Source of the DNA: a virus
Direction: 5' to 3' (one strand)
DNA: 30,346 nucleotides
Virus record (IMG/VR): IMGVR_UViG_3300044998_001421
Span: 1-30,346 of that record
The position numbers and the translations under genes are program-made. Each line of letters starts with the position of its first letter. The first letter of the stretch is position 1. Below the pieces are notes generated by a model. That model was given only the letters and a program-made list of their open reading frames with translations. It was not told the DNA's origin and did not search any database. Positions 1-27,004 of the stretch are shown here, piece by piece.

Positions 1-4
1 ACTG

Positions 5-32
5 CTCCAGACTCCCGGCTCCAGACTCACGT
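5..32. repeat. Heptameric repeat array (partial, at window edge)
   Basis: Four consecutive 7-nt units of the form CTCCNGA (sense strand GGAGWCN) run in perfect 7-nt register. The array supplies the last bases of the neighbouring tail gene, whose TGA lies at 27-29. It is the same repeat family as at 3234-3311 and 3722-3811. An opposing arm, if there is one, would lie left of the window. Confidence 0.75.
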
Positions 33-844: not shown

Positions 845-2833
845 TTACGTGAACACGAGCTTGCCATGCTGCGATTGCTCCAGCAGACGCTTGGTGTTCT
901 TGGCGGTCTCTTCGGTGGCCTTGGCCGTGCGGTCGGCCGCGCTCCCGCCGCCGAACCCGCGCACCGCCGCCGCGTTGAACGTCCCCTGCGTCGAGACCCG
1001 CTCCTCGGCCAGTTGCGACAGCAGGTCGTCCATGCCGGCCAGCTCGCCCTGGGCGCGCCGCGTTCGATCGGGCGTGTTCGCTTCCACGTCCGCCCGTTTC
1101 TGCGCGGCTTCGTGGAGCGCGGCTTCCCACTCCTTCCGGGCCTCGGCCAGCGCGTCGCCGGTCGCCGTGAGGTCGGCGGCATTCTGCCGCTCGCGGGCTT
1201 GCCGATCCTCCTCCGCCATGCGGGCCACTTCGGACTGCGCGCCTTGGCGTTCGGTCTCGATCTGCGTCCGCTGCTCCTGGCGGCGGCGGTCCCGTTCGCC
1301 GATGGTCTGCTGAGTCTGGCGATCAGTGGCGGCCGTCTGCCGCTGGAAGTCCTCGTCGAGGATCTTCGACGCCGCTTCGACGTCGAGTTCGCTGTCGAAC
1401 AGCTTCATCAGCCGCAGGACGCCCTTGCTGATGAAGTTCTGCGCGGTGCTCCAGCCCTTGGTCAGGCTCGACGTGAACACGGTCCAGGCGTCGGCCAAGA
1501 ACGCGGTCGTCTCGACCCACGCGACCTGCAAACCGGCCCAGGCATCGATCAGGAATGAGACCGCGCCGTAGAACGCCTCGCTCGCCAGTGAGAGGAAGAA
1601 TTCCTTGAAGGCGATCCAGTGTTCCTGCAGGAACGCGACCCCCTTCTGCCATTCCATCCGCAGCGTCAGCCACAGAATCTTCGCCGCCAGGGCCAGATCG
1701 CCCGCGGCGAGGGCGTCCCCGATCCCTTTCCACGCCGCAAGGGCGTCATCCTTCAGGGTTTGGAACGTGTCGGCCAGCCAGCCCAGGGCCTGGGCGCCTG
1801 CGCCGGACACATAGAAGAGGTATGCGCCCAGCCCCACGACCGCCGCCGTGACCAGTCCGATCGGGGACAACAGGGCACCAATGATCGTGCCGACCACCCC
1901 CAAAACCGTGCCGACGCCGGTGATCACCGAGGCCGCCACGCCGAACGCTGCCCCCAAGCCGGAGATCAGCGTGCCGAGGACCACCAGCGCGGCCCCGCCC
2001 GCCGCCACGGCGGCGGCGATCTGGAACACGGTGACGATCAGGGCCTTGTTCTCGCGAATCCAGTCGGCGGTGACCTGGGCGATGCGGATCGCGCTCGTCG
2101 CCAGGTCCTGCAGCAGCGGCGCGAGCGCCGCGCCGATGGCGAACACGCCGCTCTTGATCACCTTCCACAGGTCGTCGAGCGTGTCGCCGAACGTCTCGGC
2201 CGCTTTCGCGTCTTCAGTGCTGATGACCAGCCCCAGATCGCGGGCCTGCTGGCGGAGCGCGGCGATCCCTTTCGCGCCATCCTGCATCAACGGCAGCAGC
2301 GACGTCCCCGTCTTGCCGAAGAGCTCCATCGCCGTCGCCGCCCGAATGGCCGGGTCCTGATTCTGCGACAGCCGGTCGGCCAGCAGTTCAAACTGCTGCT
2401 CCGGCGACAGGCTCCCCAGGTCGGCCAGCGACAATCCCAATCGCGTCAACGTCTGCTGCGCCGTGCTCGATCCCTCGGCCGCGTCGACGAGGAACTTCTG
2501 CATCTTGCGGACGCCCCCTTCGAGCGTCGCCAGGTCGGCCCCCGACTGCTCGGCGGCGTAGCCGAGTTCCGACAGCGACTCGACCGAGATGCCGGTCCGC
2601 GCCGACAGCTTGGCGAGTTGATCCCCCATCGCGGCGAACACGTTCGTCGTCGCCAGCAGCGACGCGACGGCCGCCGAGCCGAGACCGAAGAGCTTGGCGC
2701 CGATCGACTGCACGCCCGCCCCGAAGGCCTTGAGCCGCTTCTCCGCCGCCTTCAGTCCGCGCACGAGCTTCGTGTCGTCGGCGAACAGTTCCACGAACGC
2801 CCGTCCTGCGCGAATCCCTTGCGATGAAGCCAT
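845..2833 (-). CDS. Phage tail tape measure protein
   Basis: This 662-residue protein sets tail length and is threaded inside the tail tube. The N-terminus (residues 1-60) has the SQGIRAGRAFVEL start followed by a helical KGLKAAEKRLKAFG segment, as in other tape measures. A long hydrophobic, Gly/Ala-rich region (about 270-350) is compatible with membrane-inserting segments. The C-terminal third has a Gln/Arg/Glu-rich coiled coil (about 480-590). I chose ATG 2833 because the frame upstream of it is not conserved in character and the 2833 start matches a second copy of the same N-terminus at 2924. The gene lies downstream of the G/GT chaperone genes, the classic siphophage order. Confidence 0.93.
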   Translation of the reverse strand: MASSQGIRAGRAFVELFADDTKLVRGLKAAEKRLKAFGAGVQSIGAKLFGLGSAAVASLLATTNVFAAMGDQLAKLSARTGISVESLSELGYAAEQSGADLATLEGGVRKMQKFLVDAAEGSSTAQQTLTRLGLSLADLGSLSPEQQFELLADRLSQNQDPAIRAATAMELFGKTGTSLLPLMQDGAKGIAALRQQARDLGLVISTEDAKAAETFGDTLDDLWKVIKSGVFAIGAALAPLLQDLATSAIRIAQVTADWIRENKALIVTVFQIAAAVAAGGAALVVLGTLISGLGAAFGVAASVITGVGTVLGVVGTIIGALLSPIGLVTAAVVGLGAYLFYVSGAGAQALGWLADTFQTLKDDALAAWKGIGDALAAGDLALAAKILWLTLRMEWQKGVAFLQEHWIAFKEFFLSLASEAFYGAVSFLIDAWAGLQVAWVETTAFLADAWTVFTSSLTKGWSTAQNFISKGVLRLMKLFDSELDVEAASKILDEDFQRQTAATDRQTQQTIGERDRRRQEQRTQIETERQGAQSEVARMAEEDRQARERQNAADLTATGDALAEARKEWEAALHEAAQKRADVEANTPDRTRRAQGELAGMDDLLSQLAEERVSTQGTFNAAAVRGFGGGSAADRTAKATEETAKNTKRLLEQSQHGKLVFT

Positions 2834-2843
2834 AGTGCTGTTC

Positions 2844-2924
2844 TCAGAGTGAGCGTTCACCAACAAACCGGCCGGGCCGGGCGACGAACGCCTTGCCGGC
2901 ACGGATGCCTTGGGACGAGGCCAT
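2844..2924 (-). pseudogene. Remnant of a second tape-measure N-terminus (26 codons)
   Basis: ATG at 2924 overlaps the TGA of the T-type chaperone frame by one base (TGATG). The first residues read MASSQGIRAGKAFV, matching the live tape measure start (MASSQGIRAGRAFV at 2833) in 13 of 14 positions, while nearly every third codon base differs. After that the frame diverges and stops at 2844, 10 nt before the live ATG. The pattern suggests that the original coupled tape measure start survives as a stub upstream of an acquired or recombined tape measure. It could still act as a short coupling ORF that delivers ribosomes to 2833. Confidence 0.75.
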
Positions 2925-3187
2925 CAGCGGTCACCTCGGGGGAACGGTCCCCGGTCCACGAACACAGTTTTGAGGAGGGAGATGTCGGCTTTCGGTGGTG
3001 CGGGTGAGCTGGGGGTTGGTTTGCGGTGCGGATGAAAGTCTGCTGGTTTGAGGGGGCGGGTCTTCTTGGGATCGCGATGGGCGTTGGCCAGCAGCGCGAG
3101 CAGCGCGGCCGTGTGGTTCCAGGCGTCCGACTGCCGGGCCTCGGCCATCCAGACCAGTTCCCGGAGCGTCAGCGGCCCGGGGTTCAC
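2924..3187 (-). CDS. Tail assembly chaperone, T-type extension (GT)
   Basis: The 87 codons from GTG 3187 overlap the stop of the preceding chaperone by 4 nt (GTGA). The frame is also open far upstream with no ATG, GTG or TTG, back to a T TTT TTC slippery heptamer at 3430-3436 in the chaperone gene. It is therefore probably made mainly as a -1 frameshift fusion, like gpGT of lambda: 97 residues of the first protein plus 168 of this frame. Before the GTG, the frame reads DWVWRLVWQLAGVVG. After it come LTLRELVWMAEARQ and a DPKK-rich linker. This Trp-rich helical block fits a T domain that binds the tape measure or tube proteins. The position between tail tube and tape measure supports this. Confidence 0.8.
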   Translation of the reverse strand: MNPGPLTLRELVWMAEARQSDAWNHTAALLALLANAHRDPKKTRPLKPADFHPHRKPTPSSPAPPKADISLLKTVFVDRGPFPRGDR

Positions 3188-3720
3188 GCCGACGACGCCG
3201 GCGAGCTGCCAGACGAGTCGCCAGACCCAGTCGGGAGACCGGAGTCTGGAGACTGGAGTCGCAGACGGCGGCCGTTCTCCGGACTCCCGACTCCCGACTC
3301 CAGACTCTCTCGCATCTTCTGCTCCAGTTCGGTGCTCTCCAGCCGCCGCGTCGCCGTCTCCAGCGCGATCCCCTCCAGCTTCCTGAGCTTCTCCAGCGCC
3401 TTGCGGAAGACGGTCCGCTTCCCGCTCGGGAAAAAATCGACGAGTTCCTCCAGCAATGCCGTCGTGGCGTGGTCGAGGACGTCGCCGCCGAGCGCCCGGC
3501 CGAAGTCCTCGTCGCTGACGTTCTTCGCCTCGGCTTCGGGCTTCACGAGGGCGAACAGGATGTCGCAGAGCAGGACCGGATCGGTGACCAGCCGTTCGAG
3601 CAGCTTCCCTTCGATGGCATCGAGCAGGTCGATGTTAAGCAGCGACCGCACGCGGCGGATGGCATCGACGTTGATCGTGACGGTCCAGGTGCGGCCTTGT
3701 GTGTCGTGGAACGATTTCAT
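3184..3720 (-). CDS. Tail assembly chaperone (gpG-like)
   Basis: This 178-residue protein is encoded between the tail tube gene and the tape measure, and is expected to hold the tape measure soluble while the tube polymerises around it. Residues 1-95 are a compact domain (MKSFHDTQGRTWTV start, then helices with acidic and leucine-rich faces). The start is ATG 3720; the longer upstream frame would run through a repeat array and the tail tube gene. Residues from about 137 to 165 are encoded by a 7-nt-period repeat (3234-3311) and read as low-complexity Ser/Pro/Gly/Asp, so the true C-terminus has probably been disturbed. The stop overlaps GTG 3187 by 4 nt. A -1 slippery site lies at codons 95-97. 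Confidence 0.85.
   Translation of the reverse strand: MKSFHDTQGRTWTVTINVDAIRRVRSLLNIDLLDAIEGKLLERLVTDPVLLCDILFALVKPEAEAKNVSDEDFGRALGGDVLDHATTALLEELVDFFPSGKRTVFRKALEKLRKLEGIALETATRRLESTELEQKMRESLESGVGSPENGRRLRLQSPDSGLPTGSGDSSGSSPASSA
3234..3311. repeat. Heptameric inverted repeat array inside the chaperone gene
   Basis: Four GGAGWCN units (3234-3261), a 15-nt spacer and five CTCCNGA-type units (3277-3311) are in 7-nt register. The two arms face each other and can pair into a large hairpin. The array lies within both the zero and -1 reading frames of the tail chaperone, and neither frame contains a stop here. Confidence 0.8.
3430..3436 (-). other. Predicted -1 ribosomal frameshift site (T TTT TTC)
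   Basis: On the minus strand the codons GAT TTT TTC (residues 95-97 of the chaperone) form the heptamer T TTT TTC in the X XXY YYZ phase required for tandem -1 slippage. About 11 nt downstream a short hairpin can form (GCGGA, 6-nt loop, TCCGC). The -1 frame after the site is open to the stop at 2924. This is the arrangement of G/GT in many siphophages. Confidence 0.75.
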
Positions 3721-3721
3721 T

Positions 3722-3811
3722 GGAGGCTGGAGTCCGAAGTCGGGAGACCGGAGGAAAGGAAATTCCGCTTCAGAGAACTGGCCCTCCGGACTCCAGTCTC
3801 CAGACTCCCGA
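3722..3811. repeat. Heptameric inverted repeat array between tail tube and chaperone genes
   Basis: Five 7-nt units (3722-3756) face four complementary units (3784-3811). Pairing includes a perfect 9-bp stretch (CTGGAGTCC with GGACTCCAG) and an 8-bp one (GTCGGGAG with CTCCCGAC). The array fills nearly the entire spacer between the tail tube stop (3816) and the chaperone start (3720), and could act as a processing or attenuation hairpin between highly and weakly expressed genes. Confidence 0.8.
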
Positions 3812-3815
3812 CTGA

Positions 3816-9472: not shown

Positions 9473-10982
9473 CCGATTTCTCCGGGGTCGTGGGTGCGGC
9501 GGTGGGAGCGGAGGCAGTCAGTCCCAGCTCCGTCATCAGGGCCAGTTCCTTCGCGCGCTGGCGCAATTGGGCTTCCCAGTCCTGGCCTTTGCGGGCGTAT
9601 TCGTCGGCGAGCGTGGTGGTGTGCGACGCCAAGCGCGTGGCCTGCGCGTTGGCCTCCTTCTGGGGGTCCACATGCTCGTGACCGTCCCAGAACCACTGAT
9701 GCGGCCAGTCGGCCCGGCCCAGCCGGTTTGTTCGGGACGCAGCGCCCCCGATCCACCAGTCCCCGTCATATCGGGAGTCAGTGTGCCGGAACGGGCCCCC
9801 CGTGGGGGGACCGAGGCCGGACGGCAAGAGGCCGTCGACCAGCACCGCCTCGTCGAACCAGGCGGCCAGCATCCGGTCGAGGATCACCGTCTCGATCCGC
9901 GATTGATCGATGCGGAGCGACTTGAAGTAGGTCTGGTGATCAAGGCGACCGGAGGCGTAGTTGTAGGAGGCGCTGTTTCCTGCCGCGATGTTGAACGGCA
10001 TGTTGAGACAGCGGGCGATCTCGTTCAGCACCTCTCGCTTGAACTCGGCATACGTCCCCGTCGGCTGCTCCGCGTGCAGCTGGGCCATCTTCCAACCGCC
10101 GGGCATCGTCAGCAGCATGTTCCGATCGAGTTCAATCGGATCGAGCGCTTCGACCGGGTCGGTTTCGCCGTTGGGAGGCGCGTCGGTGTAGATGATTCCG
10201 GCGTAGTAGGCCGCCGCTTTCGCCGCATCGAGCGTCGCCAGCGAGTAGTCCCGCAGCATAGCGAACAGCGGCAGCGCCGGTGTGATCTCCGGGATGCCCC
10301 GGTGCTGTCCCGGACGATCCGCCCGGAACAGGTGCAGCACCGCCTCCGCCGGAACGCGATCGTACTCCTTGGACAACGATCGGCCGTCGCCGGGGTGCTG
10401 ACGAAGGACGTGATACTCAGTCGGGTTGCCGGCGGCGTCGAAGACGATGCCGTCCACGGCGCGGGCGTCGCTCCACCGCAGATCGGGCGTGGCGACCTGA
10501 TCGGCTTCGATCAGCCGCAGGTCGAGCTGGATCGGTGTGTCGAGGCCGGGGTTATTCACCAGGACTGCGAACGCCTCGCCGTCTTGAACCTGCGCCATCC
10601 GCAGCGTGCGGAGCTTCTCGGCCAGGCCGATCGACTTGGCCCAGCGGTTAAAGGCCCGTTCGATCTGGCGGTTGGCCTCGGCGTCTTCGGTGAGCAATTG
10701 CAACCGCGGGCCGGTGCCGACGATGTCGTTGGCTAGCGTGAGCACGATTCCACGGGCGTAGCTGTTGTTGGCGACTTCGTATCGCGCCCGGTTCCGCAGG
10801 ATGCGGCGGACCTCGGGGCTGTTGGCGGCGCTGGCGCTCAAGCCATCGGCATTGCCCCAGTGCCGTCGGTTGTTGTCGGTCGTCAGAGCCGAATCGTATT
10901 TGGCGCGGACGAGTCGTAGCCCCCGGCTCACGGCCGGACGTGGCGTTTTCGACGCGAACAGGCTGGAAATCCACGACCACAC
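9435..10982 (-). CDS. Phage portal protein (lambda family)
   Basis: This 515-residue portal forms the dodecameric ring at the capsid vertex through which DNA enters. Lambda-family marks include NNSYARGIVLTLANDIVGTGPRLQ-type sequence near residue 70, the QVQDGEAFAVL block, GIPEITPALPLFAMLRDYS, and FNIAAGNSASYNYASGR followed by DHQTYFKSLRIDQ. GTG 10982 (MWSWISSLFASK) is preferred. A longer frame to 11039 is encoded by a 5-nt-period repeat array and has no protein-like character. The end overlaps the capsid fusion by 38 nt. Confidence 0.93.
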   Translation of the reverse strand: MWSWISSLFASKTPRPAVSRGLRLVRAKYDSALTTDNNRRHWGNADGLSASAANSPEVRRILRNRARYEVANNSYARGIVLTLANDIVGTGPRLQLLTEDAEANRQIERAFNRWAKSIGLAEKLRTLRMAQVQDGEAFAVLVNNPGLDTPIQLDLRLIEADQVATPDLRWSDARAVDGIVFDAAGNPTEYHVLRQHPGDGRSLSKEYDRVPAEAVLHLFRADRPGQHRGIPEITPALPLFAMLRDYSLATLDAAKAAAYYAGIIYTDAPPNGETDPVEALDPIELDRNMLLTMPGGWKMAQLHAEQPTGTYAEFKREVLNEIARCLNMPFNIAAGNSASYNYASGRLDHQTYFKSLRIDQSRIETVILDRMLAAWFDEAVLVDGLLPSGLGPPTGGPFRHTDSRYDGDWWIGGAASRTNRLGRADWPHQWFWDGHEHVDPQKEANAQATRLASHTTTLADEYARKGQDWEAQLRQRAKELALMTELGLTASAPTAAPTTPEKSDADPEEVPVSDE

Positions 10983-25649: not shown

Positions 25650-26126
25650 TCACGCCACTTGCGGAGGCCGCTTCCACGGCGGCGGACCGGAACCGTTGGC
25701 GCTCACCGCCGCAGCCGGGGGAGGCGGCGAATCCTTCTTGGCGTAGCCGCAGAGTTCGTTCGTGATTTCGCCGGTATCGGCGCGTCGCTTACATCGCACC
25801 GAAACCAGCAAGGGCAAGTTGTGGAGTTCGGTCGAATCCCTGGGGGCCATCACGCCGACCGCCCGACAAATGGCGGAGAGTTCCGCCCTGGCGATCTGCA
25901 CCGCCGTCGCATTCGGGTTGTCGAGGTTCAAGCGCGCCCAGAGCAGCCGGCCTTTGTGGGGACCGTCGAGCACCTGGAAGGTGAGCTGCAGGAAGTTCCC
26001 GGTGCCCGCCTTGGTGGGTTTCATCTCGCTGTCCACGATGGCCGCCTGATAACGGCCCGCCGGGAGCGGCTCAAAATTGGTGACGGGATCAACGTGGTTG
26101 GCATCGAATCCGTGGAGATTTGCCAT
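25650..26126 (-). CDS. DUF669 protein (ssDNA-binding, recombination)
   Basis: The 158-residue protein has the DUF669 pattern: PLPAGRYQAAIVDSEMKPTKAG, FLQLTFQVLDGPHKGRLLWARLNLDNPN, and IARAELSAICRAVGV. The C-terminal tail is Pro-rich. DUF669 proteins accompany Sak4-type ATPases and are thought to act as phage single-stranded DNA-binding partners. ATG 26126 has AAGGA about 9 nt upstream. It follows the Sak4 gene in the same operon, with a pentameric array between them. Confidence 0.87.
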   Translation of the reverse strand: MANLHGFDANHVDPVTNFEPLPAGRYQAAIVDSEMKPTKAGTGNFLQLTFQVLDGPHKGRLLWARLNLDNPNATAVQIARAELSAICRAVGVMAPRDSTELHNLPLLVSVRCKRRADTGEITNELCGYAKKDSPPPPAAAVSANGSGPPPWKRPPQVA

Positions 26127-26163: not shown

Positions 26164-26238
26164 AAATCCTTGCCATGCCTCGGCGAACCTCGGCGTGCCA
26201 TGCCGCAACGCGTCAGACCTGGCCTTGCCCCTCCGCGC
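26164..26238. repeat. Pentameric (GGNNN)n array overlapping the Sak4 3' end
   Basis: Fifteen units are in one 5-nt register, all ending in C on the plus strand. The last units lie inside the Sak4 coding region, so the protein's C-terminal GAEGQGQV is encoded by the array. The rest fills the spacer to DUF669. Confidence 0.84.
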
Positions 26239-27004
26239 CGGACGGGGCTTCTTGAGCGAGGGCCGCCATGAAGGCAGGCCACGACAGAGGCAGCTCTTCA
26301 GGGAGAGAGAAGCGGTTCTTGGCGACGCACGACGGCCCGCCGATCGTGCGGATCACCCGCTCGCCGCCGTCTTTGCCGAGCGCGAACGCGACGCCGCGCT
26401 TGCGGTTGAATCCGGCGTCTTCGGCCTGCACGCGGATCTTCCGCGTGGCGAACATCACCGCGTCGGCCCATTCGCAGACCAGGCCGCAGGCGTGCTTGTT
26501 GAGCCGCGGGCTGTAGCGGTCGTAAGCCGTCGCCTCCGGGTCTTCAAACTTCTCGACCTTGGCGTGCGCGATGCAGAGCACCACCATGCCGCGCTCGATG
26601 CGGAGCCGGTTGAGCAGCGACAGCACCTTCCGCCAGTGAGTCAGCGCGTGCGTGTACCCCTTGGCGTAGCCCCCGTCGACCTTCTCGATCGACGTGACGT
26701 CGTATTGCCGGCAGAGCTCGTCGAAGATCAGCCGTTCCAGCCAGTCGAGCGAGTCGATGACCACCGACTGGTAGTCGTGCTGCTCGGCGACGAGCGCCGT
26801 CAGCGACGACACGACATCATCGAGCGTCGTGGCCAGCGGGAACTTGTCGCAGGCGATCTCGCTCAGACCGTCTTCGGTCTGCACGAACACCGGCGACGGG
26901 GCCTGCGACGCGAACGTCGATTTGCCGATGCCCTCGGTGCCGTACAAGATCAGCCGCGGCGGCAACGGCTGTTTGCCGCGGTGAATGCAGGTGAGCAGGC
27001 TCAA
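26213..27004 (-). CDS. Sak4-like single-strand annealing ATPase (AAA_24)
   Basis: This 263-residue RecA-like ATPase has Walker A GTEGIGKST (22-30), Walker B SVVIDSLDW, and a conserved RYSPRLNKHACGLVCEWADAV-type central segment. Sak4-like proteins pair complementary single strands during phage recombination, with an SSB-type partner (the DUF669 gene next door). The start is TTG 27004, overlapping the preceding TGA by 4 nt, with AGGAGGT at good spacing. The C-terminal residues come from the pentameric array, implying that the array has intruded into the gene end. Confidence 0.9.
   Translation of the reverse strand: MSLLTCIHRGKQPLPPRLILYGTEGIGKSTFASQAPSPVFVQTEDGLSEIACDKFPLATTLDDVVSSLTALVAEQHDYQSVVIDSLDWLERLIFDELCRQYDVTSIEKVDGGYAKGYTHALTHWRKVLSLLNRLRIERGMVVLCIAHAKVEKFEDPEATAYDRYSPRLNKHACGLVCEWADAVMFATRKIRVQAEDAGFNRKRGVAFALGKDGGERVIRTIGGPSCVAKNRFSLPEELPLSWPAFMAALAQEAPSGAEGQGQV

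Follow-up and report, generated by a model that had tools for sequence, protein, structure and literature searches.

Why should a phage write the beginning of its tape measure gene twice? The question is raised by a virus record of 30,346 bases (the window, as the whole stretch of DNA that was analysed is called here) in which the recognised structural and replication genes are all on the minus strand: terminase, portal, capsid/protease, tail tube, chaperone frames, tape measure, a Sak4-like protein, primase and helicase. The tail length tape measure protein (TMP; 662 aa, 845..2833, minus strand; PHROG 8462, E 1.2e-42; 94% identical to its counterparts in the related contigs L002 and L003) is read from an ATG at 2833 and begins MASSQGIRAGRAFVEL. 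On the same strand, an ATG at 2924 opens a frame of 26 codons (2844..2924; MASSQGIRAGKAFVARPGRFVGERSL, with its stop at 2846-2844). The first 14 residues are MASSQGIRAGKAFV at ATG 2924 and MASSQGIRAGRAFV at the live start, 13 of the 14 being identical; the next best 14-codon stretch in the contig, with both strands searched, matches at 7 of 14 residues, so that the likeness of the two starts is far beyond chance. Their spelling is another matter: over codons 2-14, 11 of 39 nucleotides differ, 9 of them at third positions (9 of the 13 third positions are changed).

The two starts are also differently placed for translation. The TGA of the upstream T-like frame (2926-2924) overlaps ATG 2924 as TGATG, behind a Shine-Dalgarno sequence GAGGTG (2932..2937, minus strand) with a calculated duplex energy of -10.2 kcal/mol, the value also given by L002, L003, L004 and L009. 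The live ATG lacks such a junction, and its duplex energy is -2.7 kcal/mol against a contig background mean of -3.9. To this extent a first-pass annotation, made from the letters alone, read the locus correctly: it described two near-identical starts with recoded third positions, diverged homologues and not a recent tandem copy, with the coupled junction at the short frame and not at the live gene. The feature is real, and its bounds need shifting by one base, from 2793-2924 to 2792-2924 (minus strand).

The surroundings are those of a tail module. Directly before the TMP lies the T-like part of the tail assembly chaperone (2924..3187, minus strand), whose PF06223 (Phage_tail_T) match, E 1e-4, falls under the curated cutoff, and whose position and frame fit a lambda-type T; its tail codons read TVFVDR, a site of the kind that would pair with TMP codons FVE in the model proposed below. 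Between it and the tail tube protein is a G-like frame of 178 aa (3184..3720, minus strand), for which PHROG and Pfam profile searches gave no family match. The T-like frame is open upstream to 3634, but the stretch 3184-3634 has no ATG, GTG or TTG between the upstream stop and GTG 3187; the frame is thus probably reached by frameshifting out of the G-like frame. L002, L003, L051, L058 and L061 all keep the run GATTTTTTCCCGA in their G frame. Two more insertions relative to L002/L003, at 3236-3286 (51 nt) and 3744-3813 (about 70 nt), among the minus-strand genes, consist of GGAGTC/GACTCC palindromic repeats, of which a further copy lies near window position 1-30; the 51-nt insertion falls where the two chaperone frames overlap, and neither the G-like nor the T-like frame is closed by it. 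An Rfam search of the window gave no match. The host is probably a planctomycete, since related tape measures occur in planctomycete genomes. (In one of these, the TMP N-terminus is matched eleven times on the same contig, G358:C1, with several matches equal in score; the genome may carry a multi-copy prophage or a tailocin-like array.)

Native start, imported start

Which of the two starts is the original one? The single-start relatives supply the answer. In L002, L003 and L007, whose TMPs are 93-94% identical to that of the window, the sole start is at the TGATG and leads directly into the same TMP (...AFVELFADDTK); L004, L006 and L009 likewise have single starts. Copy 1, at ATG 2924 (2883..2924, minus strand), differs from L002 at 3 of 39 nucleotides, all synonymous, and copy 2, at ATG 2833 (2792..2833, minus strand), at 11 of 39. 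By this comparison the stranded start is the native one and the live start is foreign, which turns the earlier reading around: the short frame had been taken for the fossil of a lost tape measure.

Relative to L002/L003, the complete insertion is 91 bp (2792..2882, minus strand), made up of a 49-bp foreign spacer (2834..2882), which starts with the palindromic GCCCGGCCCGGCCGGTTT, and the recoded codons 1-14. The 26-codon ORF is copy 1 extended by codons of the spacer. Foreign sequence reaches to about codon 15 (GAA, 2789-2791), the junction reading GTG GAA where the relatives have GTC GAG. On both sides the segment is flanked by native sequence: DNA identity to L002/L003 near the junction is about 92% on either side, TMP codons 15-40, just past the patch, differ from the relative at 2 of 78 nucleotides, and the TMP is 662 aa long in the window, L002 and L003 alike. 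As judged from this alignment, the body of the TMP gene has not been replaced, the import being limited to 91 bp after codon 14, and tail length should be unchanged. The change of tail length that had been proposed thus finds no counterpart in the protein. Phages whose tape measure begins with the supposed fossil and continues do exist, in the form of L002, L003 and L007, and they run into the same TMP lineage.

The same arrangement in two other phages

When IMG/VR was scanned for the motif of the TMP start, two further double-start contigs came to light, L061 and L051. The patch follows the same codon in all three; the two copies are 94 nt apart in L061 and in L051, and 91 in the window. The native copy of L051 reads MATASGIRAG, as in its relative L069. 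The nearest relatives (L058 of L061, L069 of L051) have single starts, and identity is again uniform across the flanks, at about 90% for L061/L058 and about 80% for L051/L069. The three spacers begin alike (GCCCGGCCCGGCCGGTTT in the window, GACCGGCACGGCCGGTTT in L051, GACCGGCACTGCCGGTTT in L061): over its first 20 nt the window spacer matches L051 at 18 and L061 at 16 positions, values reached by none of 20000 shuffles, and clear homology is limited to those 20 nt. The second copies of the three contigs differ from one another at 5-8 of 39 nucleotides (7-8 between the window and the other two), the native first copies at 10-14. An upstream extension of the TMP to GTG 2902 was considered and set aside; it is open in the window and closed by stops in L051 and L061.

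A tree built without the insert region rejects a single clade of double-start contigs: its well supported branches force three changes between single and double start. L079 and L019 have long branches in it, but neither sits at the forks near the window and L061 on which this count depends. On this phylogeny the three double starts are separate occurrences. A purely ancestral double start followed by many losses is compatible with the tree taken alone, but codons 14-15 oppose it for the window and L061, which have the patch junction GTG GAA CT in common: the single-start kin and the outgroups read GTC GAG at this place, a distribution that favours import over loss elsewhere.

A gene junction as the probable source of the patch

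Where do such patches come from? The setting is suggestive. The collection comprises 128 distinct TMP starts, 19 of them immediately preceded by a gene recognisable as T-like; double starts make up three of these 19 and none of the other 109 (one-sided p = 0.003). The T genes at these loci mostly end ...LKTVFVDR..., with the DNA TTCGTsGAC, and TMP codons 13-15 are TTCGTCGAG (FVE, TTCGTsGAG), so that the short identical sequence TTCGTsGA is available at both joints. The spacer starts exactly at this codon 13-15 site; in L051 and L061 it goes on GACCGG, like a T tail, and closes, in the manner of a T gene, with a stop codon 1 nt ahead of the second ATG. T tail and spacer have 21 identical nucleotides in L061 (TTCGTCGACCGGCACTGCCGG), which indicates that sequence has moved between FVD and FVE sites; in the window the two have just TTCGT in common.

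The account that is probably correct, with a fair margin left for error, is that out-of-register recombination at short homology brought in the T-tail/TMP-start junction of another phage. A 91-bp patch of a related phage would have recombined into the native TMP gene right behind codon 14. The donor piece would start with the conserved FVD(R) codons that close a T gene, take in the T stop and the TMP start of the donor, and finish with the FVE codons in the donor's TMP; the donor would be a phage with a T gene ending in FVDRHGRFVLDAAITIGS and a stop, followed by a TMP start spelled like copy 2. Both ends of the piece would be TTCGTsGA, also found in recipient TMP codons 13-15, and out-of-register pairing of this 8-9 bp homology would insert exactly one junction unit. 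The native start would retain its coupling and its ribosome site and stop after 26 codons, leaving the TMP to be read from the imported start, 10 nt past the short ORF stop. The machinery for such an event may be at hand: the window encodes a Sak4-like ssDNA annealing protein (26213..27004, minus strand; PHROG 124, E 3.8e-40; PF13479), a candidate recombinase for it, and a single-strand DNA binding protein/DUF669 (25650..26126, minus strand; PHROG 6015, E 4.8e-43; PF05037). Several points count against this account: three events at one codon are a lot for chance recombination, clear spacer homology ends after 20 nt, the T tail and spacer of the window have so little in common, and the searches described below met no single-start donor.

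L061 offers two observations of its own. At its junction (9822-9846), GCCGGTCGA and TCGACCGGC are perfect inverted repeats of each other over 9 bp, around a loop of 7 nt in the predicted fold, and copying templated by this hairpin could be a further seed of the spacer. Within its TMP (10018-10078), 61 nt repeat the 3' end of the L061 tail-tube gene exactly and in frame; they encode VSVTAKPTYAANAPEWM, take the place of a segment found in L058, and are joined at GCCATCGG. Short-homology transfer within the tail module is thus not a one-off.

Searches for the donor gave the following. A single-start donor with the window spacer was found neither in IMG/VR nor in 398 genomes of one planctomycete class; an exact search of IMG/VR with the spacer gave no match. 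Among named phages, the DNA search returned chance matches only and the TMP search distant TMPs only, under 60% identity. Spacer-plus-start DNA met, in the 398 genomes of the one class, ordinary TMP starts or chance matches of 24-29 nt (L102, L103), and the double-start pattern was absent from 170 genomes of one order. (In L012, on the minus strand, a frameshift shortly past codon 22 interrupts the TMP, whose start lies at about 4766 in the reversed locus; the near-identical L039 has an intact TMP, and the break in L012 is either a sequencing error or the mark of a dead copy.)

Translation of the split start, and rival explanations

What does the insertion do to expression of the tape measure? 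The live ATG of the window is 10 nt past the stop of the short ORF, the gap in L051 and L061 being 1 nt (TGA-C-ATG). In the two organisms tested, E. coli and Haloferax, reinitiation drops steeply as the distance grows (PMC10666635). Given that dependence, the 10-nt gap and the weak Shine-Dalgarno sequence, the stranded ORF probably relays ribosomes to the weaker TMP start at reduced efficiency. Could the short ORF, then, be a selected translational leader, which would lower TMP per chaperone by two-step termination-reinitiation? Three phages carry it, it stays open, it ends close before the TMP in each, and in the window it places a strong ribosome site at the first start and a weak one at the second, in a process known to respond to spacing. 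Yet it occurs at 3 of 128 distinct TMP starts, with the nearest relatives doing without; its length (26 aa in the window, 30 aa in both L051 and L061) and its distance from the TMP vary; and differences between the L051 and L061 spacers, in a sample of three double-start cases in all, are spread 5/3/5 over codon positions 1/2/3, which gives no sign of peptide selection. A short frame conserved at one length in many phages, which the first-pass annotation associated with a functional leader peptide, is thus seen in part, L051 and L061 agreeing in length among three cases in all. The leader is an unlikely explanation. A related proposal, that the double start is a recurrent selected state (an imported cassette replaces the direct coupling of the TMP by a relay in two steps, which tunes TMP against chaperone supply and can be undone by recombination between the 14-codon copies), is also to be regarded with considerable doubt.

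Recurrence at one codon might instead bespeak a very small mobile cassette of 91-94 bp, with TTCGTsGA at either end, which enters at TMP codon 14, perhaps as a circle, and rebuilds the start with recoded codons. The homologous palindromic beginnings of the spacers and the restored gene start fit this, but the unit encodes no mobility function, its spacer motif (CCGGC-n3-GCCGG) has no match as a REP-like repeat in three planctomycete genomes and is not repeated in the fetched loci, and neither the IMG/VR searches nor the collected TMP starts gave a copy of the patch beyond the T-TMP junction; such an element is improbable. The scar of a tape-measure replacement, in which recombination put another TMP in the place of the old one and altered tail length, would account for two diverged starts with one of them stranded, and its general premise of recombination with another phage survives in the best explanation; replacement itself does not, the TMP body sharing its lineage with that of the single-start relatives and the pattern recurring in L061/L058 and L051/L069. 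For the window it is, on these alignments, already refuted by L002/L003, and it keeps very little probability in general. All three contigs are metagenomic, which brings assembly artefacts to mind; homologous inserts in contigs from different samples, and a join with 8-9 bp in common, far under usual assembler word lengths, make this explanation highly improbable. Least credible is a +1 frameshift at the short ORF stop (CTC TGA G in the window), fusing the short ORF to the TMP in an N-terminally doubled protein: in all three contigs the reading phase of the TMP is indeed +1 relative to the short ORF (distances 91, 94, 94), but the stop contexts in L051 and L061 (AGC/AGT TGA) are not slippery, the common phase follows from a common origin, and the relatives' TMPs start at the same residues.

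If recombination between gene junctions is the right account, the locus is a base-level record of phage gene shuffling, in which FVD-ending and FVE-starting neighbours can pair out of register and a foreign gene start can be imported while the gene body stays as it was. Since copy and flanks lend themselves to separate comparison, mosaicism by the short-homology route is testable here, and the three phages are natural constructs for asking how TMP supply depends on coupling to the chaperone gene.

How does this compare with known systems? The lambda-type tail module has the order G - GT - H (the tape measure) with overlapping stop and start. The window has the same order of tail tube, G-like and T-like frames and TMP, with the native TGATG junction, but its T stop couples to the 26-codon stranded start instead of the TMP. 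With gene pairs coupled by termination-reinitiation at ATGA/TGATG junctions (PMC6728339, PMC10666635) it shares the classic 1-nt overlap at the native junction, and L051 and L061 add their 1-nt gap between short ORF and TMP; in the window, with its wider gap and weak ribosome site, coupling is expected to be reduced. Lambda Red recombines DNA diverged by 22%, with joints in homology down to 2 bp, and RecET uses 5-13 bp (PMC2327257). Like the mosaics they generate, the window has a short foreign patch, joined where a few bases are identical, in otherwise collinear, diverged genomes, and encodes an annealing protein of its own. Unlike them, it would have arisen by out-of-register pairing between the ends of neighbouring genes, with two starts left behind, three times at one codon: ordinary phage mosaicism, yet unusually recurrent.
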